A DNA stretch of 64,000 nucleotides, from NCBI GenBank assembly GCA_035653615.1, contig DASRBN010000035.1, positions 248,001-312,000 on the forward strand, in the 5' to 3' direction. The notes under the pieces are model-generated. The model was not told where the DNA came from and searched no databases. It worked only from the letters and a program-made list of their open reading frames with translations. Positions 7,174-25,761 of this stretch are shown piece by piece. Origin of the DNA: Ktedonobacteraceae bacterium. GTDB taxonomy: Bacteria > Chloroflexota > Ktedonobacteria > Ktedonobacterales > Ktedonobacteraceae. The position numbers were made by a program, and so were the translations under genes. How positions within the stretch are numbered: the first letter of the stretch is position 1; every line of letters starts with the position of its first letter.

Positions 7174-7277
7174 TTTACTATCGGAACATTTTAGGATGTT
7201 TACGGCTCCTTCATACTGTATCATGCTTACTATCGTTGTCTTACAGAAGCCCAATTAAGATATGGTAATTATTAGCA

Positions 7278-7307: not shown

Positions 7308-7485
7308 GAGCAAGCGTATTCTCTTGTACGAGGTTTTCCAGCGGCCAATCCGGTAACATTTGAATGCTTGAAGAGTTATTTTAACCACTTCTCTACCCGT
7401 TATTTACACAGTCTTCACCTGTTTCCTCTACCCTATCAAGGAACCATATGCAAGGTGTATAGGTGCAAAAGGAAGGGAAAGAACA

Positions 7486-8940
7486 ATGAATGCTGTGTTC
7501 AATGGCGTAAAGCGGCTCTTCACGCCTATCTGGCTGCGATGCCTGCTATTACTGGTAATAGTATTCACAATCACACTCTCTGTGGTGCTGCCACGGTTGC
7601 AGCATGCACATGCTGACAATCCAGGCTGGCCGACGACTTATCTGGGGGATAATGGTCGAAGCAATTTCAATAGTTCGGAGACCATCATCAATCCATCAAC
7701 TGCCTCAAGCTTGCAGCTTGTCTGGGAGAAATCGACATGTTGCGAGGCGCCCATCACGTCGCAACCGGTGGTGGCGAATAACCTGCTCTACTGGGGCCTC
7801 TGGTCTGGCCGCGTGCAGGCGACAAAGCTGAATAACGGCAACAATATCTGGACACATGATCTCGGCCTTTCGTCCAGGAAGAGCTGCGAACCACCTAAGG
7901 TAGGTGTAGTGGGTACCTCGACCGTTGCCACCGTTACAATCAATGGGCAACCGACATCGGTGGACTTCGAAGGTGGGGCGCTCTCCAATTTCTATGCGCT
8001 GGATGCTATGACGGGTAAACAAATCTGGCGTACCCCACTGGGTGGCCCACTGCACTTCATCTGGGGTTCGGTAGCGTTCTATAACGGCGACCTGTACATC
8101 GGCACGGGTGTCCAGGGCAGTTGCGTGAGCGCACAATCGAAATTCTATCAGTTGGATGCGGCGACAGGACAAATTTTAAACACCTTCAGCACTGTGCCCA
8201 GCGGTTGCACCGGTGCGCCTATCTGGGGTTCCGCGGCAATCGATGAGCAGACAGGTATGCTGTACTTCGCTACCGGAGCACCCGGCACCTGCTCGCAAGC
8301 AGAGCCTTATGCGAATGCAATTGTAGAATTGAATACGACGGACCTGTCCTATGTCAATTCCTGGCAGATACCATCGACCAAGAGCGGGCTTGACTTCAGA
8401 AGCACCCCGACGCTCTTCTCGGCAACAATCAACGGCACTTTGTATCAGATGGTAGGCGCACTCAGTAACAACGGAACCTACTATGCTCTTGATCGCACGA
8501 ATCTTAGTGCCGGCCCGTTGTGGCAAGATCAGTTGGCAGCGCCGCAGAAAGGCAGCTATAAAGTCAACACCGAGGCAAGTACCTGGGATGGGACGACCCT
8601 CTATGTGGCCGCGGATGCCACGACGATAAATGGAACGCAGTGCGCATCCAGCGTGAGCGCGATCAACCCGGCAGATGGCTCGTACCTGTGGCAAGATTGC
8701 CTTAACCAGGGTCCGGCCTTGTGGACGATGGGTGTACCGGGCCTGGTCGTCTTCGGCGATGGCAATACGTTCAACGTAGCTGATGCCACAAATGGAACTA
8801 TCCTGTACAGCTACACTGCTACGCGGCCAGGAGCGGTCTTCCAGGGTTCAGCAACGATCTCGAATGGTGTCCTTTATATAGGAGATGCCCACGGAGACCT
8901 TTATGCTTTCGCGCCAGGTGGCTCAGCTCGCTCCAAATAA
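7486..8940 (+). CDS. Secreted PQQ-like beta-propeller repeat protein A
   Basis: 484 residues. A basic N-terminus and a long hydrophobic stretch end in an AHA-type cleavage site near residue 43, so it is secreted or membrane-anchored. The rest is made of propeller blades with motifs such as 'YALDAMTGKQIW' and 'YQLDAATGQIL', typical of the PQQ-binding-like repeat fold (quinoprotein dehydrogenases, BamB). No dehydrogenase active-site motif is evident, so it is probably a structural or binding propeller. At least six cysteines match positions in the neighbouring paralogue, which suggests conserved disulfides outside the cell. An AGGAAGGGAAAG site precedes the ATG. The paralogue follows after a 236-bp gap that contains a MITE-like repeat. 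Confidence 0.85.
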   Translation: MNAVFNGVKRLFTPIWLRCLLLLVIVFTITLSVVLPRLQHAHADNPGWPTTYLGDNGRSNFNSSETIINPSTASSLQLVWEKSTCCEAPITSQPVVANNLLYWGLWSGRVQATKLNNGNNIWTHDLGLSSRKSCEPPKVGVVGTSTVATVTINGQPTSVDFEGGALSNFYALDAMTGKQIWRTPLGGPLHFIWGSVAFYNGDLYIGTGVQGSCVSAQSKFYQLDAATGQILNTFSTVPSGCTGAPIWGSAAIDEQTGMLYFATGAPGTCSQAEPYANAIVELNTTDLSYVNSWQIPSTKSGLDFRSTPTLFSATINGTLYQMVGALSNNGTYYALDRTNLSAGPLWQDQLAAPQKGSYKVNTEASTWDGTTLYVAADATTINGTQCASSVSAINPADGSYLWQDCLNQGPALWTMGVPGLVVFGDGNTFNVADATNGTILYSYTATRPGAVFQGSATISNGVLYIGDAHGDLYAFAPGGSARSK

Positions 8941-8979
8941 ACGTTGATAGGCATGAACGGGTGCGAGGGTATCCATCCT

Positions 8980-9111
8980 TCGGGGGTAGGGGCCAGAGTA
9001 TGCGGTTTAACAAATGATGGCGGGATTCCCACCAGGGGCCGATAAATCGGCCCCGCACGTCGATTATCACAGTATTTTGTTAAAATCCCATACTCTGGCC
9101 CCTACCCCCGA
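8980..9111. repeat. MITE-like element with perfect 23-bp terminal inverted repeats
   Basis: About 132 bp lies between perfect 23-bp inverted ends (8980-9002 and 9089-9111). The TTTAACAAA box is mirrored just inside the ends. At the centre, 9036-9055, is a palindrome GGGGCCGAT-AA-ATCGGCCCC. There is no coding potential and no clear target duplication. A further partial copy of one end (TCTGACCCCTACCCCC) sits at 9138-9153, next to the ribosome binding site of the second propeller gene. Confidence 0.7.
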
Positions 9112-9176
9112 GCGACTCTGCACCAGGACGTTATGAATCTGACCCCTACCCCCCGAGGAGGTTCATAAGAGAATAT

Positions 9177-10598
9177 ATGAAGCATTTCTTTAGTGGAAAG
9201 CAACCATGGAAATTGCGCAGTTTTCTGATATTTTTTATCGGGCTTGCCATTGTGCTCGCTACAGTGATTGTTTCGGCGATGATGCCTAAGACCAATGCAC
9301 ATGCCGATACGGGCGACTGGACAACTTTTCTCGGCAGTAACGCACGTACCAGCTTCAACGCCAATGAGACTGTGATTAACCCGAGCACTGCCCCAAATCT
9401 CACACTATCCTGGACACATATGACGAATGGTACGATCACGGCTCAGCCTATCGTCTCTAATGGCGTACTTTACTGGGGTTCCTGGGATGGTCACGAACGG
9501 GCGACAAATCTCAAGAATCAAAAAGGCCTCTGGTCAAAGAATCTTGGAATTACTGTAGATAAAAACGCGGGGTGCCATCCCACTGCCGCGGGTGTTGCGA
9601 GCACTGCTACTGTTGCCACTGTATCGATCAATGGACAGAATACGCAGGTTGTCTTTGTAGGAGGGGGAGATGCTATATTCTATGCCCTCAATGCTTCAAA
9701 CGGTAGCATTATCTGGCATACGAAGCTGGGCCTGCCGCCGGCCACTTTCCTCTGGAGTTCACCGGCTTTCTATAATGGCGATATCTATGAGGGTGTTGCT
9801 TCTTTCGGCGATTGTCCACTGGTACAGGGACAGATTGTGCAGATGGATGCGGCAACCGGGGCCATTCTGAATGTCTTTAAAACAGTACCGGATGGTTGCA
9901 CAGGAGCTACCGTTTGGGGTTCGGTGGCTATCGATGAATCAACAGGCATGCTTTACTTTGGCACCGGAAATGCCGGCGCCTGTAAGCATGAGACCCTGGC
10001 TCTTTCACTGGTAGAATTAAATGCTTTGGACCTCTCGTTAGTGGCTTCCTGGAGAGTGCCGAATTTGAAAGGTGATAACGACTTCGGCAGCACGCCTACC
10101 CTGTTCGATGCCACTATTAATGGCACCTTGACCCATATGGTCGGGCTTATCAACAAGAATCGTACCTATTATGCCTTCGATCGTACAAATATTGCGGCCG
10201 GTCCTCTATGGCAGGATCAGATTTCAAGCGCGGGAGATAATATCTCATCCAGCGCCTGGGATGGCACAAACCTGTATATTGCCGGAAACAAGACTACAAT
10301 TAATGGGACAACTTGTGCTGGAAGCATCAGGGCTGTTAACCCTGCCAATGGTTCTTATATCTGGCAAGATTGTATCAAGGCGAATGTACAGGACCCTGTT
10401 ATGGCCGTGCCCGGTCTGATAGTTATAGGTGCAGGTACCGATATGCTTGTGATTAGCACTGCCGACGGCAGTATACTTTTCGATTATCATCTCGCTCCCG
10501 GTCATGCTACTTTTTTAGGGCCGGCCACAATTTCCAATGGCGTGCTTTACATAGGGAATAATGACGGTTGCCTGTATGCCTTCACACCGAGCAGCTAA
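9177..10598 (+). CDS. Secreted PQQ-like beta-propeller repeat protein B
   Basis: 473 residues and clearly a tandem duplicate of the preceding protein. It has the same order: an N-terminal hydrophobic segment ending near an AHA site, the 'FLGSNARTSFN' start of the mature part, six cysteines in matching positions, and blade motifs such as 'YALNASNGSIIW'. As in protein A no catalytic motif is evident, so an extracellular binding or scaffold role is the most that can be said. AGGAGG at 9156-9161 lies 15 nt before the ATG, rather far; AAGAGA is closer. A strong terminator follows the stop codon. Confidence 0.85.
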   Translation: MKHFFSGKQPWKLRSFLIFFIGLAIVLATVIVSAMMPKTNAHADTGDWTTFLGSNARTSFNANETVINPSTAPNLTLSWTHMTNGTITAQPIVSNGVLYWGSWDGHERATNLKNQKGLWSKNLGITVDKNAGCHPTAAGVASTATVATVSINGQNTQVVFVGGGDAIFYALNASNGSIIWHTKLGLPPATFLWSSPAFYNGDIYEGVASFGDCPLVQGQIVQMDAATGAILNVFKTVPDGCTGATVWGSVAIDESTGMLYFGTGNAGACKHETLALSLVELNALDLSLVASWRVPNLKGDNDFGSTPTLFDATINGTLTHMVGLINKNRTYYAFDRTNIAAGPLWQDQISSAGDNISSSAWDGTNLYIAGNKTTINGTTCAGSIRAVNPANGSYIWQDCIKANVQDPVMAVPGLIVIGAGTDMLVISTADGSILFDYHLAPGHATFLGPATISNGVLYIGNNDGCLYAFTPSS

Positions 10599-10649: not shown

Positions 10650-10798
10650 GGCTGCGCATTTTGCTCTCAAAGCGCAAGTTAAGTAATCTCAACATGCATT
10701 GTACGCCAGACATCCAATATTCACTTTTTCTCACCCTATCTGGCCTCTGCTAAATGCTACCCTTAAATGGCCAAACATTGTTCTTGTCAGGCAGACAC

Positions 10799-10847
10799 GG
10801 GCGACCGTAGAGCGTGGATTCATCCAGCACACGGTACGCCCCTACAG
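10799..10847. repeat. Short palindromic repeat ending in CCCCTACAG
   Basis: GGGCGACCGT (10799-10808) pairs with ACGGTACGCCC (10831-10841) with a one-base bulge; the interior can form a second small hairpin. The element ends in CCTACAG. It lies just upstream of the BNR protein gene and is read through by a longer in-frame ORF that begins at 10767. Confidence 0.55.
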
Positions 10848-10880
10848 TTCATTCACAAAAAGGAAGGATCTTTACTACTC

Positions 10881-12326
10881 ATGCGGTTTATGTCCCCCCC
10901 ACTATCGCGTTTCCTGACGTACATTGGACTTGCGATAGCTCTCATTAGCGGTTGTATGCTCTTGCTCGTCTCACATTCCTTTTCACTTGCCGCGCATGGC
11001 CATGCACCTGGCAGCGTTGCTAGCGTTCAGTTGAGTACTGACCCTTATCAAAATAAGGCAGCTGAACACCAGACCGAAGTTGAGCCTGATATCTTTGCCT
11101 TTGGCTCGACTATAGTGGCCACCTTCCAGGTTGGGCGGTTCAATCGCGGCGGGAGCGACAATATCGGTTGGGCAACCTCTAGCGACAATGGTATCACCTG
11201 GCAAAACGGCTTTCTGCCGGGCATCACCAGGATTGTGAACCCGAAGAATCCTTATGATAATGTCACCGATCCCGCAGTCGCCTATGACGCGAAACATAAT
11301 GTATGGTTGATCTCTTCACTAGCTATTACCAAAAATAGGAACAAACTGCATTTCCTGGCAGTGATTGTAAGCAGGTCAACCGATGGTGGTTATACCTGGG
11401 AAAATCCTGTTGTTGTCGATAGCAGTCAAGGAAATCTCGATAAGGATTGGATCGTTTGTGATAATTCCCCCAGCAGTCCTTACTATGGAAACTGTTACGA
11501 TCAATGGGACGCCACTCCTAACTCCCTCATTCAACTGAGTGCGTCCAATGATGGTGGATTAAGCTGGGGACAACCATTAAGTACCCAGGATAATGCTTCT
11601 GGTGTAGGCGGACAGCCCCTCGTACAGCCGGATGGAACCGTTATTGTTCCTATCGATAATGTGGATGCAAATGCAGTCTTGTCTTTCACCTCTATGAATG
11701 GAGGTGCGAGCTGGAGCAACACAGTTACGGTGGCTTCGATAACAGCTCATACTGTGGCCGGAAACCTGCGCGATACTCCGCTTATCTCAGCGGCTATCGA
11801 TGGCTCAGGAACGGTGTATGTCGTATGGCAAGACTGCCGTTTTGAGGAATCTTGCTCGGCCAATGATTTTGTGATGACGACTTCCAGCGATGGGATCAAC
11901 TGGTCTCCTGTACAATTGATTCCTGCCGACCTGGTAGGCAGCGGCATAGATCATTTTCTTCCCGGGCTTGGTATTGATCCACTTACCTCTGGAAACACAG
12001 CGCATCTGGTGCTAGCCTATTACTACTATCCGCAGGCGAATTGCAATTTTTCCACATGCCAGCTTGAAATAGGCTATACGTCTTCAACAGACGGGGGGAC
12101 TACGTGGACGCCTACCAGTAATATCGCAGGGCCAATATCCCTATCCTGGCTCGCGAACACGAATCAGGGATGGATGGTAGGTGATTATATTGCTACCAGT
12201 TTCGCCGGCGGCGCAGCATTTCCTATATTCGAGATCGCCAGCGCACCTGATAAAAAGAAGCAATGTGGAAAGGGCAAAACAAATTGCCACGAGGCGACTT
12301 TCACTGTCGCTTCTGGTCTGAGGTAA
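10881..12326 (+). CDS. Secreted BNR/Asp-box repeat protein (sialidase-like fold)
   Basis: 481 residues from ATG 10881, chosen because AGGAAGGA at 10861-10868 is well placed; the ORF is open 38 codons further upstream, but that part is repeat DNA. A hydrophobic segment near residues 10-35 is a signal peptide or anchor. Six Asp-box-like motifs (S-x-D/N-x-G-x-x-W, for example STDGGYTW, SNDGGLSW, STDGGTTW) mark a sialidase-type beta-propeller. I cannot place the Arg triad, Tyr and Glu of true sialidases, so enzymatic activity is doubtful; many bacterial homologues are extracellular binding proteins. It is the third secreted propeller-type protein in a row and converges with NRPS 2. Confidence 0.8.
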   Translation: MRFMSPPLSRFLTYIGLAIALISGCMLLLVSHSFSLAAHGHAPGSVASVQLSTDPYQNKAAEHQTEVEPDIFAFGSTIVATFQVGRFNRGGSDNIGWATSSDNGITWQNGFLPGITRIVNPKNPYDNVTDPAVAYDAKHNVWLISSLAITKNRNKLHFLAVIVSRSTDGGYTWENPVVVDSSQGNLDKDWIVCDNSPSSPYYGNCYDQWDATPNSLIQLSASNDGGLSWGQPLSTQDNASGVGGQPLVQPDGTVIVPIDNVDANAVLSFTSMNGGASWSNTVTVASITAHTVAGNLRDTPLISAAIDGSGTVYVVWQDCRFEESCSANDFVMTTSSDGINWSPVQLIPADLVGSGIDHFLPGLGIDPLTSGNTAHLVLAYYYYPQANCNFSTCQLEIGYTSSTDGGTTWTPTSNIAGPISLSWLANTNQGWMVGDYIATSFAGGAAFPIFEIASAPDKKKQCGKGKTNCHEATFTVASGLR

Positions 12327-12414: not shown

Positions 12415-15400
12415 TCAGGATTGTAACTTGCTGATGCACTCGCGCAGGTGTTGGGCCAGGATGGGGAGGTTATCGGTTCTGCAGGTCATGTGCGTGCCGG
12501 GAATAATATGCACCTCCCCGTTTTCCGCTTCGACCTGCTTGTACCATTCCTCTCGATGAGGAAACTCTTTTTCTGACCAGAAGAATGTAATCTTTCCGGG
12601 ATAGTGATATGGCAAATAGCCTGAGGCAACCCAGAGATAGACACTGGGCCAGTCATCACGCAGGTATTCGGTTTTGGGAATGAACGCTTCGACGCGGGGT
12701 ATTTCGAAACCCATAGCGTACATATCGCGACCGAGTTCGAATTTTTCGACGGTTCCAAATTGCTCCACGCCTTGCAGCATTTTACGATAGTGTTCGTCGC
12801 GCAAATATCTATAGCGATGGCGTAGGTATTTGCGCATGTGGCGGGCAAGCAGGAATATATCTAACTGTTTATCCTGCCCTAGTCGTAAAAGGCTGCCGAC
12901 CCGGTTAAGCATATTACGCATAGCCGCATGAGGGCCAGGAGTAGCCGGGTCTATCATTACAAGCAGGTCTACGGTTTGCCCTGCCGCGGTTAACTGCCTG
13001 GCTATTTCATACGCCTCAAGCCCGCCATTGCAAAAGCCACCTAAGCGGTATGGACCTTCGGGTTGAATAGCCCGCATCGATTTGATATGTTCCGCGGCGA
13101 TGGCCTCGAAAGTGGGCGGAATGCGCAGGCCATCAAATCTATAGCGCTCCAGCACGTAAAATGGCTGTTCTGGCCCCAGAGCTTGCGCTAACCTGTAAGA
13201 ATAGAATGCGCCGCTGTTCCAGTCTCCTGGCAAATAGAAAAACGGGATCTGGTTTCCACCGGCCTGAATCGTGACCACAGGAGAGCGCGAATCGCTCTCC
13301 GCAGGGCGCTTGAGAGCATTGGCGAGTTGCTCAATGGTCGGGCCGCTAAAAAGCGTAGCAAGAGAAAGCTGCTTCTTAAAGACCTTTTCTATTTTATCGA
13401 TCAGGCGAGCGGCGAGTAAAGAATGGCCTCCCAGGTAAAAGAAGTTATCGCGGATGCCGATAGGGCGCACATCTAGCAGTTCCTCCCAGATCTCGATCAG
13501 TTGATAATGCACCATCTGGGTCGGGGCGACGTAGGTATCCTCTACCATACGCCGGGTTGATTCCGGCGCCGGCAGGCTGCGTGTATCCAGTTTGCCATTC
13601 GGTGTCAGAGGGAGAGCATCCAGGAAGATAAAATCGGACGGTATCATATACTCCGGCAGCTTTTCACCCAGGAAGCTGCGCAGTTCGCTGATTGGAAGTT
13701 TCTGCTTCCTTTGCGTCACAACGTAAGCGACCAGCCGTTTTTCACTGCGTTCGTTCTGGTGGACAATGACCGCGGCTTCCCGAATGGCGGGATGCCGGCC
13801 CAGTATTGCTTCGATCTCGCCTAATTCGATGCGGAAACCGCGTAGTTTAACCTGCTGGTCCTTGCGCCCGAGGTACTCAATCGTGCCATCCGGCAGAAAA
13901 CGCACTATATCTCCTGTCTTGTACAGGCGGGCTCCCGGCTCTTCGCTGAACGGATGGGTGATGAACTTCTCGTTGGTAAGTTCGGGACGGCGCAGGTAAC
14001 CACGCGCCAGACCTGGACCGCCAATATGCAATTCGCCCGCAATACCAATGGGTACAGGGTTATTATAACGGTCGAGGATATATATTTGCGTATTGCTGAT
14101 AGGCGTGCCGATAGGGATAGAGCGGATGCCTTCGGGCAATGGCCTGGGAATAGTGTAGCAGCAGGCGAAGGTAGTCGTTTCATGCGGCCCGTAGCCATTA
14201 ATGAGCCGCGCCTGCGGCAATGACTCTAAAGCACGACGAATATGAGTGACTGAGAGAGCTTCTCCGCCGGTAAGGACTTGCTGAAGGCCGAGCAGCGCTT
14301 CAGGCGCTTCGTCGATCACCGCATTGAACAGGGAAGCGGTCAGCCAGGCAGTCGTCACCTTGTGTTTGTGTATGACCGCGCCAATACTTTTGGGAGTAGG
14401 AATTTGCTCGGAGAAAAGTACGCAGCGAGCCCCATGCAACAAAGCGCCCCATACCTCCAACGTCGAGGCGTCGAATGAAATGGGGGCCATATGCAGAATT
14501 GTTTGTGAGGCATCCAGCTGCGCGTAATTGGCGCCGATAACCAGGCGGTTGATGCTGCGATGGCATATTTCTACGCCCTTGGGTTTGCCAGTGGAACCTG
14601 AAGTATACATGACATAAGCAAGGTTATCGGAAGTGACATCACTGGTAGGATTATCAGTGCTTTCGCGAGCGACCTTTTCCCATTCTGTATCCAGAACAAT
14701 CACGTGCAGGCCATCTGTTGGCAGTTCTCCAGCCAATTGCTGTTGCGTGAGGAGGATGTGGGACTGCGCATCCGCAAGCATGAAAGCAAGCCGCTCTTTG
14801 GGATATGCCGGATCGAGCGGGAGATAGGCGCCACCGGCTTTTAGGATGCCAAGCAGACTTATAATCATCTCGAAGGAGCGATCCATACAGATACCTACTA
14901 GCACTTCCGGCCCGACTCCCAGTTTTTGCAAGTGGTGTGCCAGCTGATTGGCCCGTGCGTTCAGCTCTTTATATATCATTCGCTCATCACCATAAAGGAG
15001 CGCCACCCCATCGGGATTGCGCTCCACTTGCGCTTCGAAAAGGTGATGAACGCAGCGTTCCCCATGATAGGGCGCAGTGGTATTGTTCCACTCTACCAGA
15101 ATCTGCTGTCGTTCAGCACCGGTTAGCAGTGGCAATTGCACGATATGCTGTTCAGGATTGGCGACCACCCCTTCCAGGAGTGTCTGCCAGTGGCCAAGCA
15201 TGCGTTGAATGGTTGTCGCATCGAACAATGTGGTGCGATATTCGAAGCGGCCGGTCAGGCCGTCCGGTCGATCTTCGGCGATGATCGATAGATCAAACTT
15301 CGATGTCTCTGTATCGATGTCGGTGTAAGTGAGCGTCCATCCTGGGGGAAGATCGGGCGCCGGCGGGTCGAGGGACAGCAGCACCTGGAAGAATGGATGC

Positions 15401-16491
15401 TGATTCAAGTCACGCTCGGGATGCAATTGCTGTACGATGTATTCGAAAGGCACATCGGCATTCGCCTGCGCTTCCAGAGTCATCTTGCGCACGCGCCTGA
15501 GCAGTTCCTTGAAAGTAGGATTGCCGGATACATCGGTTCGCAAGGCCAGTGTATTGACGAAGGCGCCGATTAAGCTCGCGGTTTCGGATTGCGCGCGCCC
15601 AACGACAGGCGAGCCAACGACGATATCTTCCTGCCCCGAGTAGCGGTAAAGCAGGGTCTGGAAAGCCGCGACCAGCAGCATGTGCAACGTGACCCCTTCC
15701 TGGCGGCTCAAAGCCTTGAGGTCTCCGGTCAGATCTTTCGAGAATGTGAATAAGTGCATCGATCCCCTGAACGTGGGAACAGACGGGCGCACATGATCTG
15801 CTGGCAACTCGAGGATGGCGGGAGCATCCTTGAGTTGTTGCCTCCAGTAATGCATTTGCTCCTCAAAATGCCCTTCCTGCAGCCGCTCGCGCTGCCAGAC
15901 CGCGAAATCGGCATATTGAATGGGCAAGTCTGACAACGGGGATGGACGACCATGTGCGAAGGCATCGTAGAGCTGCGCCAGTTCTTGCAGGAAAATACCA
16001 AAGGACCAGCCATCCGAAATACTATGATGCATGTTGACCAGCAACACAAACTCCTCTTCGTCCAATTGGACTAAAGTTGCTCGGATAAGCGGACCTAGTG
16101 CGAGATGAAAGGGTTTCATGGCTTCTTGCACTGCAAGATTCCGCGCCTTACTCTCTCGCTCGGATCGGGGGAAAGCCCGCAGATCAACAATAGATAATGG
16201 GATGCTCCAGGCAGGCTTAACGACCTGCACAGGCTGCCCATTCTGCATGCTAAATGTGGTGCGCAGGACTTCATGACGCTGTACTAGTGCATTGAGGCTT
16301 CGCTCGAGTGCCTCCTCATTCACAGCGAAGCTTAGACGAATGGCGGACGGCATATTGTACGCAGCGCTTTGAGGCTCCAGCTGGTGAAGGAACCAGAGGC
16401 TTTGCTGGGTGAAGGAAGTTGGAAATAGATAGACATCTTCTTCCATTGAAGTATGGCTTGAAGATGTAGCCATGACGCCATTTTTATTCAT
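12415..16491 (-). CDS. NRPS 2: condensation-adenylation-carrier-thioesterase (terminal module)
   Basis: 1358 residues. The condensation domain (about 20-460) has an intact HHSISDG motif. The adenylation domain (about 470-970) has core motifs YTSGSTGKPKG, NGYGPHE, YKTGD and NGKLD. Pocket residues read by alignment to GrsA are D-A-L-W-L-G-G-T-F-K, which resembles the known valine-type code DAFWIGGTFK. The carrier Ser is 1024 (LGGHS). The last 270 residues are a type I thioesterase in which the nucleophile motif GxSxG reads GFCNGG, with Cys1154 instead of Ser. Asp1181 lies 27 residues later, the same spacing as in surfactin thioesterase, and His1334 lies in PGTHMT. The start codon overlaps the stop of NRPS 3 by 8 nt, so translation is probably coupled. 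This should be the last module: it adds its residue and releases the peptide. Confidence 0.93.
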   Translation of the reverse strand: MNKNGVMATSSSHTSMEEDVYLFPTSFTQQSLWFLHQLEPQSAAYNMPSAIRLSFAVNEEALERSLNALVQRHEVLRTTFSMQNGQPVQVVKPAWSIPLSIVDLRAFPRSERESKARNLAVQEAMKPFHLALGPLIRATLVQLDEEEFVLLVNMHHSISDGWSFGIFLQELAQLYDAFAHGRPSPLSDLPIQYADFAVWQRERLQEGHFEEQMHYWRQQLKDAPAILELPADHVRPSVPTFRGSMHLFTFSKDLTGDLKALSRQEGVTLHMLLVAAFQTLLYRYSGQEDIVVGSPVVGRAQSETASLIGAFVNTLALRTDVSGNPTFKELLRRVRKMTLEAQANADVPFEYIVQQLHPERDLNQHPFFQVLLSLDPPAPDLPPGWTLTYTDIDTETSKFDLSIIAEDRPDGLTGRFEYRTTLFDATTIQRMLGHWQTLLEGVVANPEQHIVQLPLLTGAERQQILVEWNNTTAPYHGERCVHHLFEAQVERNPDGVALLYGDERMIYKELNARANQLAHHLQKLGVGPEVLVGICMDRSFEMIISLLGILKAGGAYLPLDPAYPKERLAFMLADAQSHILLTQQQLAGELPTDGLHVIVLDTEWEKVARESTDNPTSDVTSDNLAYVMYTSGSTGKPKGVEICHRSINRLVIGANYAQLDASQTILHMAPISFDASTLEVWGALLHGARCVLFSEQIPTPKSIGAVIHKHKVTTAWLTASLFNAVIDEAPEALLGLQQVLTGGEALSVTHIRRALESLPQARLINGYGPHETTTFACCYTIPRPLPEGIRSIPIGTPISNTQIYILDRYNNPVPIGIAGELHIGGPGLARGYLRRPELTNEKFITHPFSEEPGARLYKTGDIVRFLPDGTIEYLGRKDQQVKLRGFRIELGEIEAILGRHPAIREAAVIVHQNERSEKRLVAYVVTQRKQKLPISELRSFLGEKLPEYMIPSDFIFLDALPLTPNGKLDTRSLPAPESTRRMVEDTYVAPTQMVHYQLIEIWEELLDVRPIGIRDNFFYLGGHSLLAARLIDKIEKVFKKQLSLATLFSGPTIEQLANALKRPAESDSRSPVVTIQAGGNQIPFFYLPGDWNSGAFYSYRLAQALGPEQPFYVLERYRFDGLRIPPTFEAIAAEHIKSMRAIQPEGPYRLGGFCNGGLEAYEIARQLTAAGQTVDLLVMIDPATPGPHAAMRNMLNRVGSLLRLGQDKQLDIFLLARHMRKYLRHRYRYLRDEHYRKMLQGVEQFGTVEKFELGRDMYAMGFEIPRVEAFIPKTEYLRDDWPSVYLWVASGYLPYHYPGKITFFWSEKEFPHREEWYKQVEAENGEVHIIPGTHMTCRTDNLPILAQHLRECISKLQS

Positions 16492-19400
16492 CTCGCAAAC
16501 TACTCCTACCCAGTGATAATGAATTTGAAGTCAATTTCATACGGTAATGCTCGCGAGAGACTGACCGTATTGGTGGCAATTGTTGCCCGGTATCGTTAGA
16601 TTTCATTCGCATTATTTTATCGGCTAATCCGGCAATTGTTGGAGTTTCAAAGAAGCTGCGCAAGGGAAGTTCCACTGCTAAGGTCGCATGAAGGCGTGAA
16701 ACTACGTACATAGCAAGCAGGGAATGCCCGCCCAGCGTGAAGAAATCGTCGTAGATTCCAATCTGCTCGATGCCAAGAACCTGAGACCACGTAGCGGCCA
16801 CGACCTCTTCGATGTGTGTGCGAGGAGGAACATATGCATCATGATTTGAACTCAGACGAAGTTGATCTGGCCCGGGCACAGGCAGAGCTTTACGATCCAA
16901 CTTGCCATTCGGCAGCAATGGTAGGGCCGGCAGCAGTATATAAGCCGATGGAAACATATATACAGGTACATATAGTGATATAAAAGAATGTAAGTCGTCG
17001 ATGGTCAGGACAGCGTTGTCTTGCGGCACGACATAAGCGACCAGGCGCGTATCTCCAGGGGCATCCTCCCGCGCAATCACGGCCACATCCCTCACTCCTG
17101 GATGCCGGCGCAGTATCTCTTCGATTTCTCCTAACTCGATGCGATAGCCACGCAGTTTGACCTGGTGATCAGTGCGCTCAAGGAACTCAATATTGCCATC
17201 GGGCAGATAGCGCACGCGATCCCCTGTTTTATAAAGCCGGGCACCTTCCTGGGACGCGGTAAACCTGGTTCCTACAAAAGGATTGGGGATGAAACGCTCG
17301 GCCGTCGCTTCTGGGCGCTGTACATAACCGCGTGCTATTCCTGCTCCGCCAACATACAATTCCCCGGCAACTCCAACGGGCACCGGTTGAAGATGTGAAT
17401 CCAGGACGTAGACCTGCGTATTGGCAATGGGGCGACCAATAGGCACCGATTCTCTCTTTTCCCCCGGTTGGCAGCGATAGACGGTACACCAGACGGTCGC
17501 CTCGGTCGGCCCATACTCGTTGTAAAGGGCACTATTGGGCAGGCAGGTGAAGTGGCGCTCCACCAGGGCCTTCGGACAACGCTCGCCGGCAACGATGACG
17601 GTCCGCAATGAGTCTAACGGGCGCGTTGATGCCTGCTCGAGCAACAAGCTATATAATGATGGCACGCACAAGGTGTGAGAAGGCTCCTGCTTTGCGATAA
17701 GGTCGCTGAGCAGGAATGGATCGCGCACTACTCCCTCTTCAGGCAGCAATAGCGTTCCTCCCTGGCACAACGTCCAATAAATACCGGCGACCGAACTATC
17801 GAATGTCAGCGCGGAGAGCAGTAAGTACTTGCGTACCGGCTCGCGATAATATGCTATGCGCGCCAGGGTAGAGTGCCAGAGATTCTGGTGTGTAATGGCT
17901 ACTCCTTTGGGGCGACCGGTTGAGCCAGAGGTGTACATGATATATGCGAGATGCTGACCCTGTACATGGCTTTTCGGGTTGTCATCCGAATTATCGTCCG
18001 GAATCTCATCGATAGCCAGGTAGAGCGGCGAGGATGGGGTGATGACATCCCCACTCGCGGGCATCATGTTCCTGTTTGTGAGGACGAAGGAGACGCGGGC
18101 GTCCTGCAACATAAAGGCCAGCCGGTCGGAGGGCGTCGCCGGATCGAAGGGCACGTAAGCGCCTCCTGCTTTGAGCACACCGAGCATTCCCACTATCATT
18201 TCCAGGCTATTGGGTAGCAGGAGACCAACTATCACCTCCGGCCCTACTCCTGATTGTCGCAAGTAGCGCGCAAGCCGGTTGGCACGCGCATTCAATGCTC
18301 GATAGGTTAACTGTTCAACGCCATAAGCCAGGGCCACAGCATCAGGTGTGCGCTCGACCTGCTCCTCAATCAGCCGGTGGACAGGCCTCTCTTCTGGAAA
18401 TGCTGTAGTAGTAGCGTTCCATTCTACCAGCAGGCGTTGACGCTCGTTTTCTGTTAGAAGAGCTAATTCCGATAGCTTGTGATCGGGATGCTGCGCGATG
18501 CTCTCCAGCAGTGTTTGCCAGTGACTTATCATACGCTGAATAGTCGTGTCGTCGAAGAGGTCGGTGCTATACTCGAAGCGGCCAATGATGCCTTCGGTTC
18601 GATCTTCGGCAATCAAAGTGAGATCGAATTTGGAGATGCCCGTTTGCGCATCCATGTGGGACAGGGTCCAACCGGAGGGTAGGACAGGGTGTTGTGGTTC
18701 GAATACAAACAGGACCTGGAAGAGAGGATTGTAACTTAGACTGCGCTGCGGTTGTAATTCCTTCACCACGTATTCAAAAGGGACATCCGCGTGGGCCTGA
18801 GCCTCGAACGTGGTCTCACGAACCTGCTTGAGGAGGTCGAGGAAGCGAAGATTTCCTGATAGCTTTGAGCGCATCACGACCGTATTCATAAACAACCCCA
18901 TTAGCTGCTCGAGTTCCGAGCGCACACGCCCTCCTGTTGCGGTACCGATGAGGATATCCTCTTGCTCTGTATAGCGATAAAGCAGGGTAGTGAAAGCTGC
19001 CAGCAGCAACATGTACATCGTTACCTGTTCCTGGCGGCACAACGCGCGCAAACGAGCGCTGAGGGAAGCTGACAGCGTGAATGGCTGTACAAACCCACGA
19101 TAGGTAGGAACGGCAGGTCGAGGGCGATCAGTGGGCAGTTCAAGCGCGGCGGGGGCGCCCGCAAGCTGCTGCTTCCAATAGGCAATGCCAGGGGCCATAG
19201 CCTGCTCTTGCATCTCCTCTCGCTGCCAGGCCGCGAAATCGGCATACTGGATAGGCAGGTCGGGGAGTGGCGACGGTTGTCCTGCCGAGAAAGCTGCATA
19301 GAGCGCGGACAGTTCAGGTAGGAACACCTGGTATATCGTGATGCCGTCGAAGATGATGTGGTGTAGCGTCAAAAATAGCCTGTGTTCCTCGTCCCCCATC

Positions 19401-19879
19401 TGTATCAACAAGGCGCGCAGCAATGGACCTCTTGAAAGATCAAAAGGGCGTCTGGCATCCGAAGATGCCAGGCGCACGGCCTGTGCCTCTCGCTGTGCTT
19501 CTGGGAGAGGGCGCAGATCCACAACGGGCAGTTTGAGATGGAGAGCCGGTTGAATCACCTGTACAGGCTGTCCGTCTACCAGGGGAAAGATGGTACGCCA
19601 TGCTTCATGCCGACGGATGATTTCATTCAGGCTTTTTGTAAGCGCATCAACATCCAATGATCCAGGCAAGTGAACGGTGACGCGCTCATTATATACAGGA
19701 ATATCGGGTTGCAGTTGCGAAAGCAGCCATATTTGTTGTTGTCCAAAAGAAAGCGGTGCTATCTCTCCTGGCGAGCGCCGGGGAATACCATTTCTGGCTG
19801 TAGCCTGTGGGCGGTCACTGAGCAAATATTGGGCTAACAGTGCGCGCTTGACCTCTGAAAGTTCGGTTCTCTCTGGCAT
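16484..19879 (-). CDS. NRPS 3: condensation-adenylation-carrier (elongation module)
   Basis: 1131 residues. A short N-terminal helical segment (ELSEVKRALLAQYL) like those before many condensation domains is followed by C (about 45-480, motif HHIIFDG), A (about 490-1010, YTSGSTGRPKG, NEYGPTE, YKTGDR, NGKLD) and T (Ser1053 in LGGHS). Pocket residues by alignment are D-S-A-C-I-A-E-V-W-K; I name no substrate. The C-terminal tail PPIRSVSREHYR resembles the tail of NRPS 4 (PPLKSIAREAYR), perhaps an end-of-protein linker or docking feature. It is the first gene of the leftward two-gene operon and overlaps NRPS 2. With a free C domain it should accept an upstream aminoacyl carrier, the obvious donor being the A-T protein transcribed from the other side of the intergenic region. 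Confidence 0.93.
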   Translation of the reverse strand: MPERTELSEVKRALLAQYLLSDRPQATARNGIPRRSPGEIAPLSFGQQQIWLLSQLQPDIPVYNERVTVHLPGSLDVDALTKSLNEIIRRHEAWRTIFPLVDGQPVQVIQPALHLKLPVVDLRPLPEAQREAQAVRLASSDARRPFDLSRGPLLRALLIQMGDEEHRLFLTLHHIIFDGITIYQVFLPELSALYAAFSAGQPSPLPDLPIQYADFAAWQREEMQEQAMAPGIAYWKQQLAGAPAALELPTDRPRPAVPTYRGFVQPFTLSASLSARLRALCRQEQVTMYMLLLAAFTTLLYRYTEQEDILIGTATGGRVRSELEQLMGLFMNTVVMRSKLSGNLRFLDLLKQVRETTFEAQAHADVPFEYVVKELQPQRSLSYNPLFQVLFVFEPQHPVLPSGWTLSHMDAQTGISKFDLTLIAEDRTEGIIGRFEYSTDLFDDTTIQRMISHWQTLLESIAQHPDHKLSELALLTENERQRLLVEWNATTTAFPEERPVHRLIEEQVERTPDAVALAYGVEQLTYRALNARANRLARYLRQSGVGPEVIVGLLLPNSLEMIVGMLGVLKAGGAYVPFDPATPSDRLAFMLQDARVSFVLTNRNMMPASGDVITPSSPLYLAIDEIPDDNSDDNPKSHVQGQHLAYIMYTSGSTGRPKGVAITHQNLWHSTLARIAYYREPVRKYLLLSALTFDSSVAGIYWTLCQGGTLLLPEEGVVRDPFLLSDLIAKQEPSHTLCVPSLYSLLLEQASTRPLDSLRTVIVAGERCPKALVERHFTCLPNSALYNEYGPTEATVWCTVYRCQPGEKRESVPIGRPIANTQVYVLDSHLQPVPVGVAGELYVGGAGIARGYVQRPEATAERFIPNPFVGTRFTASQEGARLYKTGDRVRYLPDGNIEFLERTDHQVKLRGYRIELGEIEEILRRHPGVRDVAVIAREDAPGDTRLVAYVVPQDNAVLTIDDLHSFISLYVPVYMFPSAYILLPALPLLPNGKLDRKALPVPGPDQLRLSSNHDAYVPPRTHIEEVVAATWSQVLGIEQIGIYDDFFTLGGHSLLAMYVVSRLHATLAVELPLRSFFETPTIAGLADKIMRMKSNDTGQQLPPIRSVSREHYRMKLTSNSLSLGRSSLRDE

Positions 19880-20574
19880 TCTATTACATCCACCATAGCA
19901 TCTAGCAGGTAAAATATTTTACCCTGTTTTGTACCTCATGCACCATCTCTTATATGAACATTTGCGAGTGAAGGCCCGAATCATTCCGCATCATAATGAA
20001 ACCTTGCTCTAACCGATAGAAGAGATTATTAGATTATTACCGGTTATTTCCCAGAAATATATCATGTTCCTCTTGAGAAGTAATGACAATCAGGTTAAGA
20101 CCTGGTTGCGAAAGCATCTTTCATGTTATGAATGTGCCGGTTTGTATGAAATTGCGTTCATTAAAACTCTATTAAATAGGACTGATGCAGCAGTAACCCG
20201 AAAAGCCGGTACGTAAATTTACCCATTTAGCTCATATTTACGTGTAGAAAAAGTTGCGGGGTAAGCATTGCTCATCTGGGTAGTAATTTCTTCACTAATT
20301 TTATCGTGTTAGCAACTAAGCGCTATAGTTTAACTACTTAGTAATGATATAGAGAAATACCCGCTGAAAACTTTCGTACTTTCTATATTGTCCAATGCTC
20401 CCGCCTTTGTTAGGCTCTTAGAAAGATTGTATCTCTATTCGTTTCCGGTGGGAGCGATGAGGAGTTTACTTCCGCAAGTATTCGTCGACTGCACGTGGCG
20501 CAGGTGTAAGGCACATACACCCGGAAACTACAGTGATAGTGAATGACGCAGGCAAGACCGAAGGAGAACAGCCA
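19880..20574. promoter_or_regulatory. Divergent control region between NRPS 3 and NRPS 4
   Basis: Nearly 700 bp, distinctly AT-rich compared with both flanking genes, and without a convincing gene. It must hold the promoters for both NRPS transcription units. An 8-bp inverted repeat (20211-20218 and 20236-20243, ACGTAAAT/ATTTACGT, 17-nt spacer) is a candidate operator. Further imperfect repeats lie near 20311-20345 (ACTAAG/CTTAGT) and around 20450-20530 (TTCCGG/CCGGAA). No riboswitch or T-box signature was recognised. Confidence 0.5.
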
Positions 20575-22569
20575 ATGGTGGAATGGACGTCTTCGAAGGC
20601 TCATCTACATACCCGGTGCTTGCATGAGCTATTCGAAGACCAGGTAGTACGAACTCCCCTGGCAGTGGCTATAGTTCATGGGCATCAACAGATCACCTAC
20701 CAGGATTTGAATCAGCGGGCCAATCAATTAGCGCGCCATTTACGCACCAGAGGAGTGGTGCCGGAGACGACGGTGGCAATGCTTGTCGAACGCAGTATTG
20801 ATTTTGTAACGGCAATTCTGGCTCTATTTAAGGCTGGTGGCGCTTTCCTTCCGCTCGATCCACAGTATCCAGTTCGGCGGCATTTCGAGATACTTGAACA
20901 GAGTCGTTGTCCCTATGTACTTACAACACACCATTACGAAACGCTCTTATCAGATGCACTCGCACCGTTCGATGCAGGAAAGGGGCCGCAGGTTCTCCAT
21001 TTTGAGGCTCTTATGCAGGAGAAAGAGGCCCACGAAAATCTCCCATCGTATAGTAAACCGGCAAATCTGGCATATGTTATGTATACTTCTGGTTCAACGG
21101 GATTACCAAAGGGTGTGATGGTTGAGCAGGCCGGAATGGTCAACCATACCTATGCCAAATTAGCGGATATGGATATAGGTATGGCGGATAGAGTTGCCCA
21201 GAATAGTCCGCCAAGCTTCGATATTGTTGTATGGCAATGCCTGGCGGCATTAGTGGTAGGAGGCTGCGTCCACATCGTCAAGGATGAGATCGCAAATGAT
21301 CCACTACAACTGCTGTGGCAAACAGATCAGCAAAAAATTACGGTCTTGCAGGTGGTACCATCAATGCTACGAGCCATGGTAAAGGAAGCGATGATGCTGG
21401 GTGATGAGCGTCCCAGGCTAAGGAATCTGCGCTGGATTGTGCCAACAGGTGATGCTTTATCGCCAGAACTGTGCCGGCAATGGCTGCGCCTCTATCCTGC
21501 TATTCCAATGCTCAACAACTGCGGTTCGACCGAGTGTTCCGATGACAATTGTCACTATGCGATCTACGAACCGCCGGCGGAGGACTATCCGCTACCAATT
21601 ATGCCCATAGGCTGGCCTATTCACAATATAGATGCCCATATCCTTGATGAGCAATTGATGCCGGTTCCAGAGGGAGAGGTCGGCGAATTGTATATAGGTG
21701 GCATAGGTGTCGGGCGCGGATATATCAATAATGCGGAGAGAACCGCCGAGGTGTTTCTTCCCGATCCATTTTCGCGGGAACCTGGAAAGCGATTATATAA
21801 AACACGCGATAGGGCGCGCTATCTGCCCGATGGTTCGATTCAGTTTCTTGGAAGAAGCGACAATCTCATCAAGATTCGGGGTTTGCGTATCGAGCCGAGC
21901 GAAATAGAAAGCGTGCTGGAACGTCACCCTGCCATACATGAGAGCGTCGTTCTCGCCTGGGAATCTGGTGATGAGGCCAGGCACCTGGTGGCATACATAG
22001 TTCTGGCCACGGAAGTGTCACCTTCCAATGAAGAGTTGCGTGACTGGCTGCGAATGAAGCTTCCAGAATACATGATTCCAACTATATATGTGCAACTGGA
22101 TGCCATGCCTTTGAATGCGAACGGTAAGTTAGACCGCCATGCATTGCCGGCGCCTGATCTATCGCGTCCCGAAATCCAATCGATCAACAACAGGCCACGC
22201 ACTCCGTTGGAAGAAACGATTGCAGCCACCTGGTCCGAGGTGCTGGAAATCGAGCAGGTAGGTATTCACGACAACTTCTTTGCGTTAGGTGGGGATTCGC
22301 TGTTAGCGATGCAGGTTTTGTCGCGGTTACGTGCTGCCCTTTCAACAGAGGTACCTATATACAGTTTTCTCGAAGAACCCACGGTTGCTCAACTGGCGCA
22401 ATTGCTGCAAGAAAGCCAGGCGGCGAGCATGCAGGCGAATAAACCGCCGCTGAAATCAATCGCCCGCGAAGCCTATCGAGTGCCTGCACTATCCGTTCTG
22501 GAGCAGAACGGCCAATCCGCTAAAGACTTCCAACATGAAAAAGGCAAGAACAATCATCACAGGCATTAA
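20575..22569 (+). CDS. NRPS 4: stand-alone adenylation-carrier protein (likely initiation module)
   Basis: 664 residues from ATG 20575, chosen for AAGGAGA at 20561-20567 (7-nt spacing); a GTG at 20533 in the same frame lacks such a site. The adenylation domain (about 15-520) has YTSGSTGLPKG, but unusual later motifs: the usual NxYGPTE is NNCGSTE followed by CSDDN, and YKTGDL is YKTRDR. Pocket residues by alignment are D-I-W-Q-V-T-N-D-D-K, with no assignment made. The carrier Ser is 575 in LGGDS. There is no condensation domain, so it fits an initiation module, or an in trans loader that presents a tethered amino acid to a tailoring enzyme. The SHMT/GcvT fusion starts 18 bp downstream, so the two are co-transcribed. 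Confidence 0.9.
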   Translation: MVEWTSSKAHLHTRCLHELFEDQVVRTPLAVAIVHGHQQITYQDLNQRANQLARHLRTRGVVPETTVAMLVERSIDFVTAILALFKAGGAFLPLDPQYPVRRHFEILEQSRCPYVLTTHHYETLLSDALAPFDAGKGPQVLHFEALMQEKEAHENLPSYSKPANLAYVMYTSGSTGLPKGVMVEQAGMVNHTYAKLADMDIGMADRVAQNSPPSFDIVVWQCLAALVVGGCVHIVKDEIANDPLQLLWQTDQQKITVLQVVPSMLRAMVKEAMMLGDERPRLRNLRWIVPTGDALSPELCRQWLRLYPAIPMLNNCGSTECSDDNCHYAIYEPPAEDYPLPIMPIGWPIHNIDAHILDEQLMPVPEGEVGELYIGGIGVGRGYINNAERTAEVFLPDPFSREPGKRLYKTRDRARYLPDGSIQFLGRSDNLIKIRGLRIEPSEIESVLERHPAIHESVVLAWESGDEARHLVAYIVLATEVSPSNEELRDWLRMKLPEYMIPTIYVQLDAMPLNANGKLDRHALPAPDLSRPEIQSINNRPRTPLEETIAATWSEVLEIEQVGIHDNFFALGGDSLLAMQVLSRLRAALSTEVPIYSFLEEPTVAQLAQLLQESQAASMQANKPPLKSIAREAYRVPALSVLEQNGQSAKDFQHEKGKNNHHRH

Positions 22570-22587
22570 TATGGGAGCTATTATTCT

Positions 22588-25500
22588 ATGAACCCTACTG
22601 CCATTGAGCAATTCTGGCAACGCTCTATCCCTGAAGCTGACCCGTGGTTGGCTACGGTTCTAGAACGGGAAGAAGAGCGGCAATTCTCACAAATTTGCCT
22701 GGGAGCTGCTTCGAGTTTATGCCCGCGCGCTGTGAAAGAAGCGCAGGCCTCTGTCTTCTCCAACATTGACGCCGAGGGATATCCACCAAGACGCATGCAT
22801 TCGGTTTCCTGGGAGCATCTACTCGATGTGGACGAGCAGGTGGCGCATTATGGACGCTTCGGGGATTCGCGCTACAATAAGGGAACCGAGCTGGCGAACG
22901 TCGTTGAAGTGGTGGCTCAGAGACGGGCAGCTGCCGTTTTCTCGACGCGGTGGGCGAACAATAGTAATCTTTCAGTTGACGCCGCGGATATCCATGTGAA
23001 CCTGCAATGTCCCACCGGCTCATTAGCAAACACGGCAGTATTCGAGGCCCTTTTGAAACCTGGAGATGTTGTTTTAAGCATGAATCTCGTAGACGGCGGC
23101 CACCTGACGCATGGAAGTCCTTTACACCGATCTGGCAAGACATACAGGATAGTACACTATGGCGTCGATCCGGTGACGCAACAGCTGGACTACGATTCGA
23201 TTCGAGACCTCGCCCTATGCTATCGTCCCAAATTAATTGTTGGCGGAGCCAGTTCTTACCCGTGGGCAATCGACTGGCAAAGATTGCGGGAGATTGCTGA
23301 AGAAATCGAGTCAGGACCATTTATTCTGGCCGATATCTCGCACCCGGCAGGGCTGGTGAGCGCCGGCCTTATTCCTAATCCAATCGGCTACGCGGATGTG
23401 GTGACGTTTACCACCTACAAGACATTGTGCGGCCCGCGGGGAGCGGCTATCCTCAGCACGGATTCTGCGATAGCGGAATCCATCGATAGAGCAGTGTTCC
23501 CCGGCTTGCAAAGCGCGCCGGTATTCCAGCAGATCGTGGCCCTGGCAGTGGCTTTTGAAATCGCGGGGACGCAAGCATTCCGGCAGTTGCAGCACACCAT
23601 TGCGGGGAACGCTCGCCTTTTGCATCACTATCTCACCGAGATGGAGATACCGGTAGCCTTTGGTGGCACCAATACGCATATTGTGGTCGCGGATGTTGGG
23701 AAAGTTCCTGTTATGACCGGGCAACGATTAACCGGTGACGTTGTGACGCGCATCTTAGAGCGAGCGGGTATCAGCTGCAATAGCAACATGATTCCGGGTG
23801 ATACCCATGCCGCCCTGGCCTCTGGCGTGCGCCTGGGAACGACCTGGATTTCACAACTGGGTTATGGTGAGACCGAAGTGCGCGAGATTGCATCCATTAT
23901 CGCCGATATCTGTAAAGGCATTCGATCATATCGTTTTTACGGTTCGCGCAGGGAAACGCCGGGAGGCAAAATCGAGGCCGAGTTGCTGCGGTCCGCCAGC
24001 CTGCGAGTCAAGGAAATTTTAAAGCATCGCAATGAGCATTTTGAAACATTTCCAGCACGCAGGCACCTGGAGATACGAACCGCGACAAAGTGGTTAGAAG
24101 CCTTGATGGTGACAGGAGAGCGGGCCACAGGATTTCTGCAATCGATTGTCACCAGAGATGTCTATAGCTTGAAAATAGGGGAACTGACTCCCGCGCTGAT
24201 ACTGTATGCGAATGGCGAAAAGCGGCTCGATGTGTATATTTGCGCTCTAGAGAGCCGACCATACCCACGATACCTGTTGATCTATGCAAACGATGCTGAG
24301 CCTGGTCTTCACGATTGGCTGCGCATGCTTTCAGATGGCCATATTGTAGTCGAGAGCAACGATCCTTTTATTACCATCGATGGGCCGGTGGTGATTCGGC
24401 GAGCTGACCGGCGATTTCTCAATGAAGTACAACCCGAAATTGATCACGTGGCTCAGGGGCTTACTCGTTCTCACAATGGCAGCAAACGAGAGGAAGAAGG
24501 GTTAATCGACTACAGCAAACCGTATTTTATGGGGCAAACAACACTTCCGGCGTCCAATGTGAATAAACAAAGATTTGCTTTTGAAGAGAGAAATTCTTCC
24601 AGGTTGCTGGCCGGGCCTTCGCCATTGCATGATTGCCATAAAGCATTGGGGGCCAGGTTCGCCGATTTCGGCGGTCAACAGGTGCCTCTCTATTTCACTT
24701 CTCACCACCATGAACATCAATCGGTGCGCCAGCATGCCGGGCTGTTCGATCTTTCTTACAAGGTTTTATTGGGCTTTGAAGGATGGGGGGCAGAAAGATT
24801 TTTAGACCTGGTATTGACAGAACATATTCCATCACTGAATAAGGAGGCAAGTTGTCGAACCTGCATTCTGAGTCCTGATGGTACGGTTCTCAGCGATTGT
24901 ATCGTGTACCGCCTTGCAACTGATTACTTCATGATGGAATTAGAGCCTCTTCACGCCGGGATGGTAGAAAGCTGGTTACGCACTGCTGCCGCCCACGAGG
25001 TAATGATAGACCTGGCAAGACCGGCTATTGAGGTGGATAGAACCTGTAATATTACCAATCTCACAACCACTCCTGACGCATTGACCATCCTTGCATTACA
25101 AGGGCCAGCATCTACCGCTATTCTGCAATCCCTGTTGGCAGAGAATAAGGGTCACCATGTGTTGCATAATTTGAAAAAAGGACACATTGCTGAGCTTACG
25201 TTTGCGGGTAGAACTGCGTGGATTGGGCGCAGGGGATATAGCGGTGAGCCTGTGGGATATGAAATCTTTGTGCCACAGTCGCAAGCTGTATCCCTGTGGA
25301 ATACATTGATGGACGCGGGTGCTGCTCATCACTTAAGCTCGGTGGGGCTGCTCGCGACAGAAAGTCTCAGAATAGAGGCCGGCTTGCCCCTTTATGAGAA
25401 GGAGCTGGCCGGCCCGTATTCGGTCAATCCTATGGAGGCGGGTTTTGGCAGCGCTATCAAATTGCATAAGCCGTTTTTCGTGGGCAGGCAGCAGATGCTC

Positions 25501-25761
25501 TCTTGCAAGGCCACACGAAGATTGGTACGACTACGAGCGGAAACAGGCGCGGCGAGCCTGAAGTATCTAGAACCAACGATATATGATGATGCTGGAAAAA
25601 TTATAGGGATAACGACGAGCAGCGCCTGCGTCACGGGTCAATTTTATGGGATAGGACTTCTTGATGAGTTTGAGCGAGCGAAAGGGTATCTTTGCTTGAA
25701 TGGCTCGTCTTTAGCGGTCGAGGTTTTGCCTATTGCATATGGGGCAGTGGTCGGGGCATAG
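22588..25761 (+). CDS. Fusion of serine hydroxymethyltransferase, degenerate GcvT-like domain and aminomethyltransferase
   Basis: 1057 residues. Residues 1-455 are a PLP-dependent SHMT: DAEGYPPRR matches the catalytic Glu region, ADISHPAGL the PLP-contact region, and TTYKTLCGPRG the Schiff-base Lys (K278). Standard enzymes have TTHKTLRGPRG, so the His before the Lys is Tyr and one Arg is Cys; there is also a loop insertion after the Glu motif. Residues about 485-640 resemble a worn GcvT folate-binding domain (VTGERATGFLQ). Residues about 679-1057 are a full aminomethyltransferase-like (GcvT) domain. SHMT moves a hydroxymethyl group between folate and glycine or a related amino acid; GcvT makes methylene-tetrahydrofolate from a carrier-bound aminomethyl group. 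Placed 18 bp after the A-T protein, it probably makes or alters an NRPS building block. That role is inferred. Confidence 0.85.
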   Translation: MNPTAIEQFWQRSIPEADPWLATVLEREEERQFSQICLGAASSLCPRAVKEAQASVFSNIDAEGYPPRRMHSVSWEHLLDVDEQVAHYGRFGDSRYNKGTELANVVEVVAQRRAAAVFSTRWANNSNLSVDAADIHVNLQCPTGSLANTAVFEALLKPGDVVLSMNLVDGGHLTHGSPLHRSGKTYRIVHYGVDPVTQQLDYDSIRDLALCYRPKLIVGGASSYPWAIDWQRLREIAEEIESGPFILADISHPAGLVSAGLIPNPIGYADVVTFTTYKTLCGPRGAAILSTDSAIAESIDRAVFPGLQSAPVFQQIVALAVAFEIAGTQAFRQLQHTIAGNARLLHHYLTEMEIPVAFGGTNTHIVVADVGKVPVMTGQRLTGDVVTRILERAGISCNSNMIPGDTHAALASGVRLGTTWISQLGYGETEVREIASIIADICKGIRSYRFYGSRRETPGGKIEAELLRSASLRVKEILKHRNEHFETFPARRHLEIRTATKWLEALMVTGERATGFLQSIVTRDVYSLKIGELTPALILYANGEKRLDVYICALESRPYPRYLLIYANDAEPGLHDWLRMLSDGHIVVESNDPFITIDGPVVIRRADRRFLNEVQPEIDHVAQGLTRSHNGSKREEEGLIDYSKPYFMGQTTLPASNVNKQRFAFEERNSSRLLAGPSPLHDCHKALGARFADFGGQQVPLYFTSHHHEHQSVRQHAGLFDLSYKVLLGFEGWGAERFLDLVLTEHIPSLNKEASCRTCILSPDGTVLSDCIVYRLATDYFMMELEPLHAGMVESWLRTAAAHEVMIDLARPAIEVDRTCNITNLTTTPDALTILALQGPASTAILQSLLAENKGHHVLHNLKKGHIAELTFAGRTAWIGRRGYSGEPVGYEIFVPQSQAVSLWNTLMDAGAAHHLSSVGLLATESLRIEAGLPLYEKELAGPYSVNPMEAGFGSAIKLHKPFFVGRQQMLSCKATRRLVRLRAETGAASLKYLEPTIYDDAGKIIGITTSSACVTGQFYGIGLLDEFERAKGYLCLNGSSLAVEVLPIAYGAVVGA

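Follow-up and report, generated by a model that had tools for sequence, protein, structure and literature searches.

A 64,000-nucleotide stretch of DNA from a Ktedonobacteraceae bacterium (hereafter, the window) encodes P0001, a 1,057-amino-acid fusion of an SHMT (GlyA) domain, a GcvT (T-protein) relic, and a GcvT domain that descends from a family of housekeeping fusions found in other Chloroflexota, lies in the operon of an NRPS A-T protein, and has lost SHMT residues that are invariant in its relatives. The explanation that we favor, tentatively, is that P0001 is a former housekeeping fusion recruited to the NRPS operon, with a predicted activity in which the amino donor has shifted away from glycine. 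As judged from its sequence and setting, the probable task of P0001 is to produce or alter an unusual building block.

The gene is a single open reading frame on the forward strand, running from an ATG at 22588 to a stop at 25761. Its SHMT-like domain (aa 1 to 450; 22588 to 23937, +) aligns with the SHMT of Bacillus stearothermophilus (bsSHMT; 1kkj) and matches Pfam SHMT at 1.1e-94 (PF00464; 317.8 bits versus a cut-off of 27). It is followed by a middle domain, a GcvT fragment of about 110 residues identified by a family profile and Foldseek that gives a weak Pfam GCV_T stretch (24070 to 24387, +), and by a C-terminal GcvT domain (aa 680 to 1027; 24625 to 25668, +; PF01571, 2.9e-63, 213.9 bits versus a cut-off of 25.6). 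The three folate-linked domains that an earlier, sequence-only reading had placed in one chain were thus recovered, as was the PLP lysine that it had described as retained, Lys278 (Lys226 in bsSHMT), which sits inside TTYKTLCGPRG. An insertion of about 28 aa in the active-site loop region of the SHMT domain (22786 to 22869, +) is present in all members of the fusion family and absent from bsSHMT. The full-length AF2 model of P0001, with a pLDDT of 61, is too weak for active-site modeling.

Upstream in the same operon lies a free-standing A-T protein (20533 to 22569, +; AMP-binding, AMP-binding_C, and PP-binding in Pfam), and the 18-bp spacing noted from the sequence was confirmed: the gap covers 22570 to 22587, and GGGAG, a ribosome-site-like motif, precedes the ATG of P0001. 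The carrier motif of the A-T protein, LGGDSLL, is intact. Divergent from this operon and 653 bp apart is an NRPS C-A-T gene (16484 to 19879, −; Pfam), which overlaps a C-A-T-TE gene encoding a termination module (12415 to 16491, −; Pfam). At the usual ten positions, the A-domain code of the A-T protein reads D-I-W-Q-V-T-N-D-D-(K), and its relatives within Ktedonobacteria NRPSs mostly carry D-I-W-[EQ]-x-T-x-D-D; a literature search for the code found no match, and a search for the same A-T protein elsewhere in Ktedonobacteria found only generic A-T relatives, at no more than 54%. We presume that the code resembles those for diamino acids (diaminobutyrate type) and not that for alpha-methylserine. 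Elsewhere in the window, an NRPS C-A-T protein (879 to 5114, +) has a C-terminal tail unusual for an NRPS, residues 1251 to 1364, which match AhpC/TSA (thioredoxin fold) weakly and at the Pfam cut-off. Two paralogous PQQ-type beta-propeller genes (7486 to 10598, +) and a BNR-repeat gene (10767 to 12326) also lie among the NRPS genes.

The fusion itself is widespread. Whole-protein searches of 350 sampled Chloroflexota genomes found relatives of P0001 in 70 (E of ≤1e-85), about 45 of which carry the relative as one full-length frame of 1,040 to 1,300 aa with 35 to 41% identity; in a class-level search of 47 genomes from the group to which the window belongs, only the window's genome yielded the fusion. 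Family searches for SHMT, GcvT, and gcvP (the glycine-cleavage P-protein) in 36 carriers, and in the genome of P0001 itself, revealed that the fusion, in one or two copies, is the sole SHMT in 34 of the carriers and also the sole GcvT in several (G139, G195, G202, G237, and G346); gcvP was present in every carrier checked, 3 to 9 kb from the fusion in three (G216, G258, and G325). For these reasons, the fusion in other Chloroflexota is a housekeeping GlyA-GcvT enzyme; a literature search for a description of it found none. The chain is split into adjacent SHMT-middle and GcvT genes at four loci (L078, L081, L087, and L093). A pattern scan for GxxW[LIV]xQLG after IPGD returned 38 loci, nearly all of them Chloroflexota fusions and canonical at the SHMT sites checked. 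No NRPS gene was found in about 75 neighborhoods of relatives, 40 of them covered by gene maps and these plus the 38 pattern-scan loci by BLAST with the window's NRPS proteins. An NRPS-specific architecture was thereby ruled out, and the earlier proposal that the fusion is an NRPS tailoring unit, with the associated question of whether it always sits beside A-T proteins, is largely answered in the negative: the fusion as such is common in housekeeping loci away from NRPS genes, whereas the P0001 copy is not such a case. The members with the most changes at conserved positions of the GcvT part are L062, L064, and L070 (family f40), and two of the genomes (G182 and G231) also have a separate canonical gcvT; this points to a loosening of constraint where a genome has a second copy.

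P0001 shares with these fusions (L036 to L094 and L095 to L134) the SHMT insertion, the truncated GcvT relic, the GcvT domain, and a common clade, with identity of up to 42% over the whole length. The middle domain had been read as a degenerate GcvT, and this holds: its family profile matches the Bacillus subtilis GcvT (1yx2) at 3.3e-9, and its AF2 model, with a core pLDDT of 75 to 93, retrieves T-proteins at Foldseek ranks 1 to 7 over about 110 residues. Among fusions of about 1,225 to 1,250 aa, L075 (G064; 6643 to 10389) has a complete GcvT at this place (Pfam, 2e-44; alignment) and L140 (G352, a Brocadiia/Planctomycetota MAG; 3219 to 6896) a longer, divergent middle domain. As a full-length GcvT occupies the same place in G064, the short domain is what is left of a second, once complete GcvT, a relic typical of the whole family and no peculiarity of P0001. 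With more than half of the GcvT fold missing from a fragment of about 110 residues, a working folate site there is unlikely.

The C-terminal GcvT domain, like other T-proteins, keeps the catalytic aspartate, Asp770, which we take to correspond to D97 of the Escherichia coli and D101 of the human enzyme; a D97N entry is among the Foldseek matches. It differs from them in the neighboring Asp and the folate-side Asn, with the family motifs IDD and VVNAxN broken at Ser769 (from Asp) and Glu786 (from Asn), and 11 of 41 near-invariant GcvT positions are changed, compared with 0 to 9 in other members (one short fragment aside).

A tree of the SHMT domain places P0001 within the fusion clade (98% SH-aLRT), at the end of a branch 1.36 changes per site long; the tree is a quick one, and with so long a branch the exact placement is unsure. 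P0001 retains 83% of near-invariant SHMT positions, versus 17 to 38% of variable ones, and the absence of any stop in 1,057 codons at such divergence, together with the retention of invariant positions, indicates that it is translated and under selection. No relative above 42% identity was found in about 980 Chloroflexota genomes, the nearest (L159 to L161) being canonical; no plasmid record covered 80% of the protein, and a search of viral contigs with P0001 as the single query found no relatives. Co-occurrence with NRPS genes is seen at P0001 only, a single sequence, with no orthologue closer than 42% found in those genomes, in the pattern scans of 84,980 species, or on plasmids. Contig C19 of its own genome carries a gcvT-gcvH-gcvPA-gcvPB run with a canonical gcvT, in which gcvH was assigned solely from its position and the start of its sequence; two more SHMT-like genes lie on C41 and C30. 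With this operon and another SHMT present, housekeeping does not depend on the fused copy. The SHMT-like gene on C30 (L143; 7185 to 8582) has Ala at Tyr51, Phe at Tyr61, and SAGK for TTHK, and is a divergent SHMT-fold enzyme outside NRPS genes.

Alignment of the SHMT domain with 39 fusion relatives and bsSHMT, whose numbering is used here, showed that 17 of 100 near-invariant positions are changed in P0001, versus 0 to 6 in the other members, and that the losses cluster on the substrate and PLP-phosphate side. Ser31, Tyr51, Tyr61, and His225, invariant in all 39 relatives, are all lost. Ala-Ser replaces Ser31-Glu32 (aa 41 and 42; 22708 to 22713, +; S-E in 39 of 39 relatives), Asp replaces Tyr51 (aa 61; 22768 to 22770, +), Asn replaces Tyr61 (aa 97; 22876 to 22878, +), and Tyr replaces His225, adjoining the PLP lysine, to give TTYK (aa 277 and 278; 23416 to 23421, +; alignment and pattern scan). 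In addition, Ser-Ala replaces the invariant Gly256-Gly257 of the PLP phosphate loop (aa 309 and 310; 23512 to 23517, +), and Arg366 is Leu. The Chloroflexota fusion members checked keep Ser31-Glu32, both tyrosines, TTHK, and Gly256-Gly257, lack NRPS neighbors, and usually provide the only SHMT of their genome. Glu53, His122, Asp197, His200, Lys226, Asn341, and Arg357 are kept in P0001, which in these residues and in fold resembles bsSHMT, while differing from it in the replacements at Ser31, Tyr51, Tyr61, His225, and Gly256/257 and in its fusion to GcvT. The sequence-only reading had taken two motif changes as signs of altered specificity. TTYK is indeed peculiar, with 0 matches to TTYKT[LMIVF]xGPRG in a DNA-pattern scan across 84,980 species; LCGPRG is ordinary, being common in canonical housekeeping fusions with TTHK, and was discarded as a specificity signal.

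For several of the changed residues, roles in substrate or PLP binding or in donor choice have been described. In Thermus thermophilus SHMT, the substrate site comprises Ser31, Tyr61, Arg358, and Glu53, with Ser31 binding at the substrate carboxylate site, and the PLP phosphate is held by Tyr51 and the amide of Gly258 (PMC10397204). Tyr55 and Tyr65 of SHMT set the amino donor, their counterparts in alpha-methylserine hydroxymethyltransferase being Thr60 and His70, and the Tyr55Thr change opens SHMT to D-Ala and D-Ser (reviewed in PMC6411801). Since Tyr51 and Tyr61 are the sole tyrosine pair ten apart in YAEGYPGRRYY, they are the same pair as the published Tyr55/Tyr65; Tyr51 thus combines donor specificity with a PLP-phosphate contact, and Tyr61 with a substrate contact (PMC6411801, PMC10397204). 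P0001 resembles the alpha-methylserine enzymes (Aminobacter/Ensifer type) in having both tyrosines changed, and differs in carrying Asp61 and Asn97 where those have Thr and His. To our knowledge, no GcvT fusion of an alpha-methylserine hydroxymethyltransferase exists. With Tyr51, Tyr61, and Ser31 changed and the catalytic set kept, the pattern fits a shift of donor better than random decay, and altered substrate choice, as first proposed, is better supported than before, given the changed tyrosines, a copy that is not the housekeeping one of its genome, and the operon with the A-T protein.

The main rival of a donor shift is that P0001 is degenerate or catalytically dead, a pseudoenzyme or a gene in early decay, present in the A-T operon by chance and perhaps serving as a scaffold or a folate- or PLP-binding part. 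We consider this unlikely, while noting that Asp at the Tyr51 phosphate contact, together with the altered Gly256/Gly257 loop, means that PLP may have been lost; the change at His225, the loss of Asp769 and Asn786 from the GcvT domain, and the long branch point the same way. Against it stand the stop-free 1,057 codons at 1.36 changes per site, the kept catalytic Lys, Asp, Glu, His, and Arg, and the retention of invariant positions far above variable ones; moreover, the Helicobacter pylori SHMT is a published instance of a nonstandard PLP site (PMC6294363).

For folate-independent C-C bond exchange, NRPS and nucleoside pathways have repeatedly drawn on SHMT-like enzymes (PMC5490192). P0001 might likewise be an aldolase or transaldolase with the SHMT fold, akin to ObaG, LipK, and FTase, and supply the A-T protein with a beta-hydroxy amino acid. 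A larger aldehyde could be favored by the loss of Tyr61 and Ser31, and the L-threonine transaldolases ObaG, FTase, and LipK are themselves PLP enzymes of the SHMT fold that natural-product pathways have taken up. However, these form a separate clade in the ObaG paper and lack a GcvT domain, whereas P0001 lies in the SHMT fusion clade with 44% identity to bsSHMT (ObaG has about 25% to SHMTs) and falls far below the transaldolase family score (74.6 bits against the FTase model F_threo_transal, TIGR04506, with a cut-off of 650). As an attached GcvT domain also makes no sense with a folate-free reaction, we regard this alternative as improbable.

It is very doubtful that P0001 works as an ordinary bifunctional GlyA-GcvT, a source of serine, glycine, or methylene-folate, and lies near NRPS genes by chance: that is the role of the family in other Chloroflexota, but here the genome is already equipped with a gcvTHP operon and another SHMT, and only the P0001 copy has lost the invariant SHMT residues. 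A reading close to the original proposal, a self-contained one-carbon NRPS tailoring enzyme in which the SHMT domain would hydroxymethylate an alpha-substituted, perhaps carrier-bound, amino acid and the GcvT domain would hand over methylene-folate within the chain, seems to us just as hard to sustain.

For recruitment with a shifted donor, the explanation that we favor, we infer the activity and substrate of P0001, the hand-over of its product to the A-T protein, and the role of its GcvT domain as follows. The bifunctional housekeeping fusion of other Chloroflexota is the ancestor; a copy may have entered a Ktedonobacteria-like lineage, where the resident gcvTHP operon and another SHMT would have freed it from housekeeping, and it would then have been recruited into an operon with the A-T protein. 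In the SHMT domain, the PLP lysine is kept, as are the residues for general acid-base chemistry and carboxylate binding, but the donor pocket is rebuilt (S31A, Y51D, Y61N, H225Y, G256S, and G257A), so that retro-aldol/aldol chemistry on a non-glycine amino donor appears most likely. The likely product would be an alpha-substituted (e.g., alpha-hydroxymethyl) or otherwise nonstandard amino acid, which the A-T protein might activate for the divergent C-A-T/C-A-T-TE line; the role of the GcvT domain, changed too but still with its catalytic Asp, would be no more than adding to or drawing from the folate one-carbon pool in cis. Several points count against this explanation: Asp at the Tyr51 site, next to the PLP phosphate, might lower the affinity for the cofactor; the GcvT domain shows decay; P0001 lacks the Thr/His pair of the alpha-methylserine enzymes; the A-domain code presumably resembles diamino-acid codes rather than one for alpha-methylserine; and P0001 is a single sequence.

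In many Chloroflexota, a single GlyA-GcvT chain would join glycine cleavage to serine synthesis. P0001, a fusion beside an NRPS loading protein that is altered at the two donor-deciding residues of its SHMT domain, is in this respect a natural experiment and could offer a new way of making the quaternary amino acids of peptides, or a biocatalyst for them.
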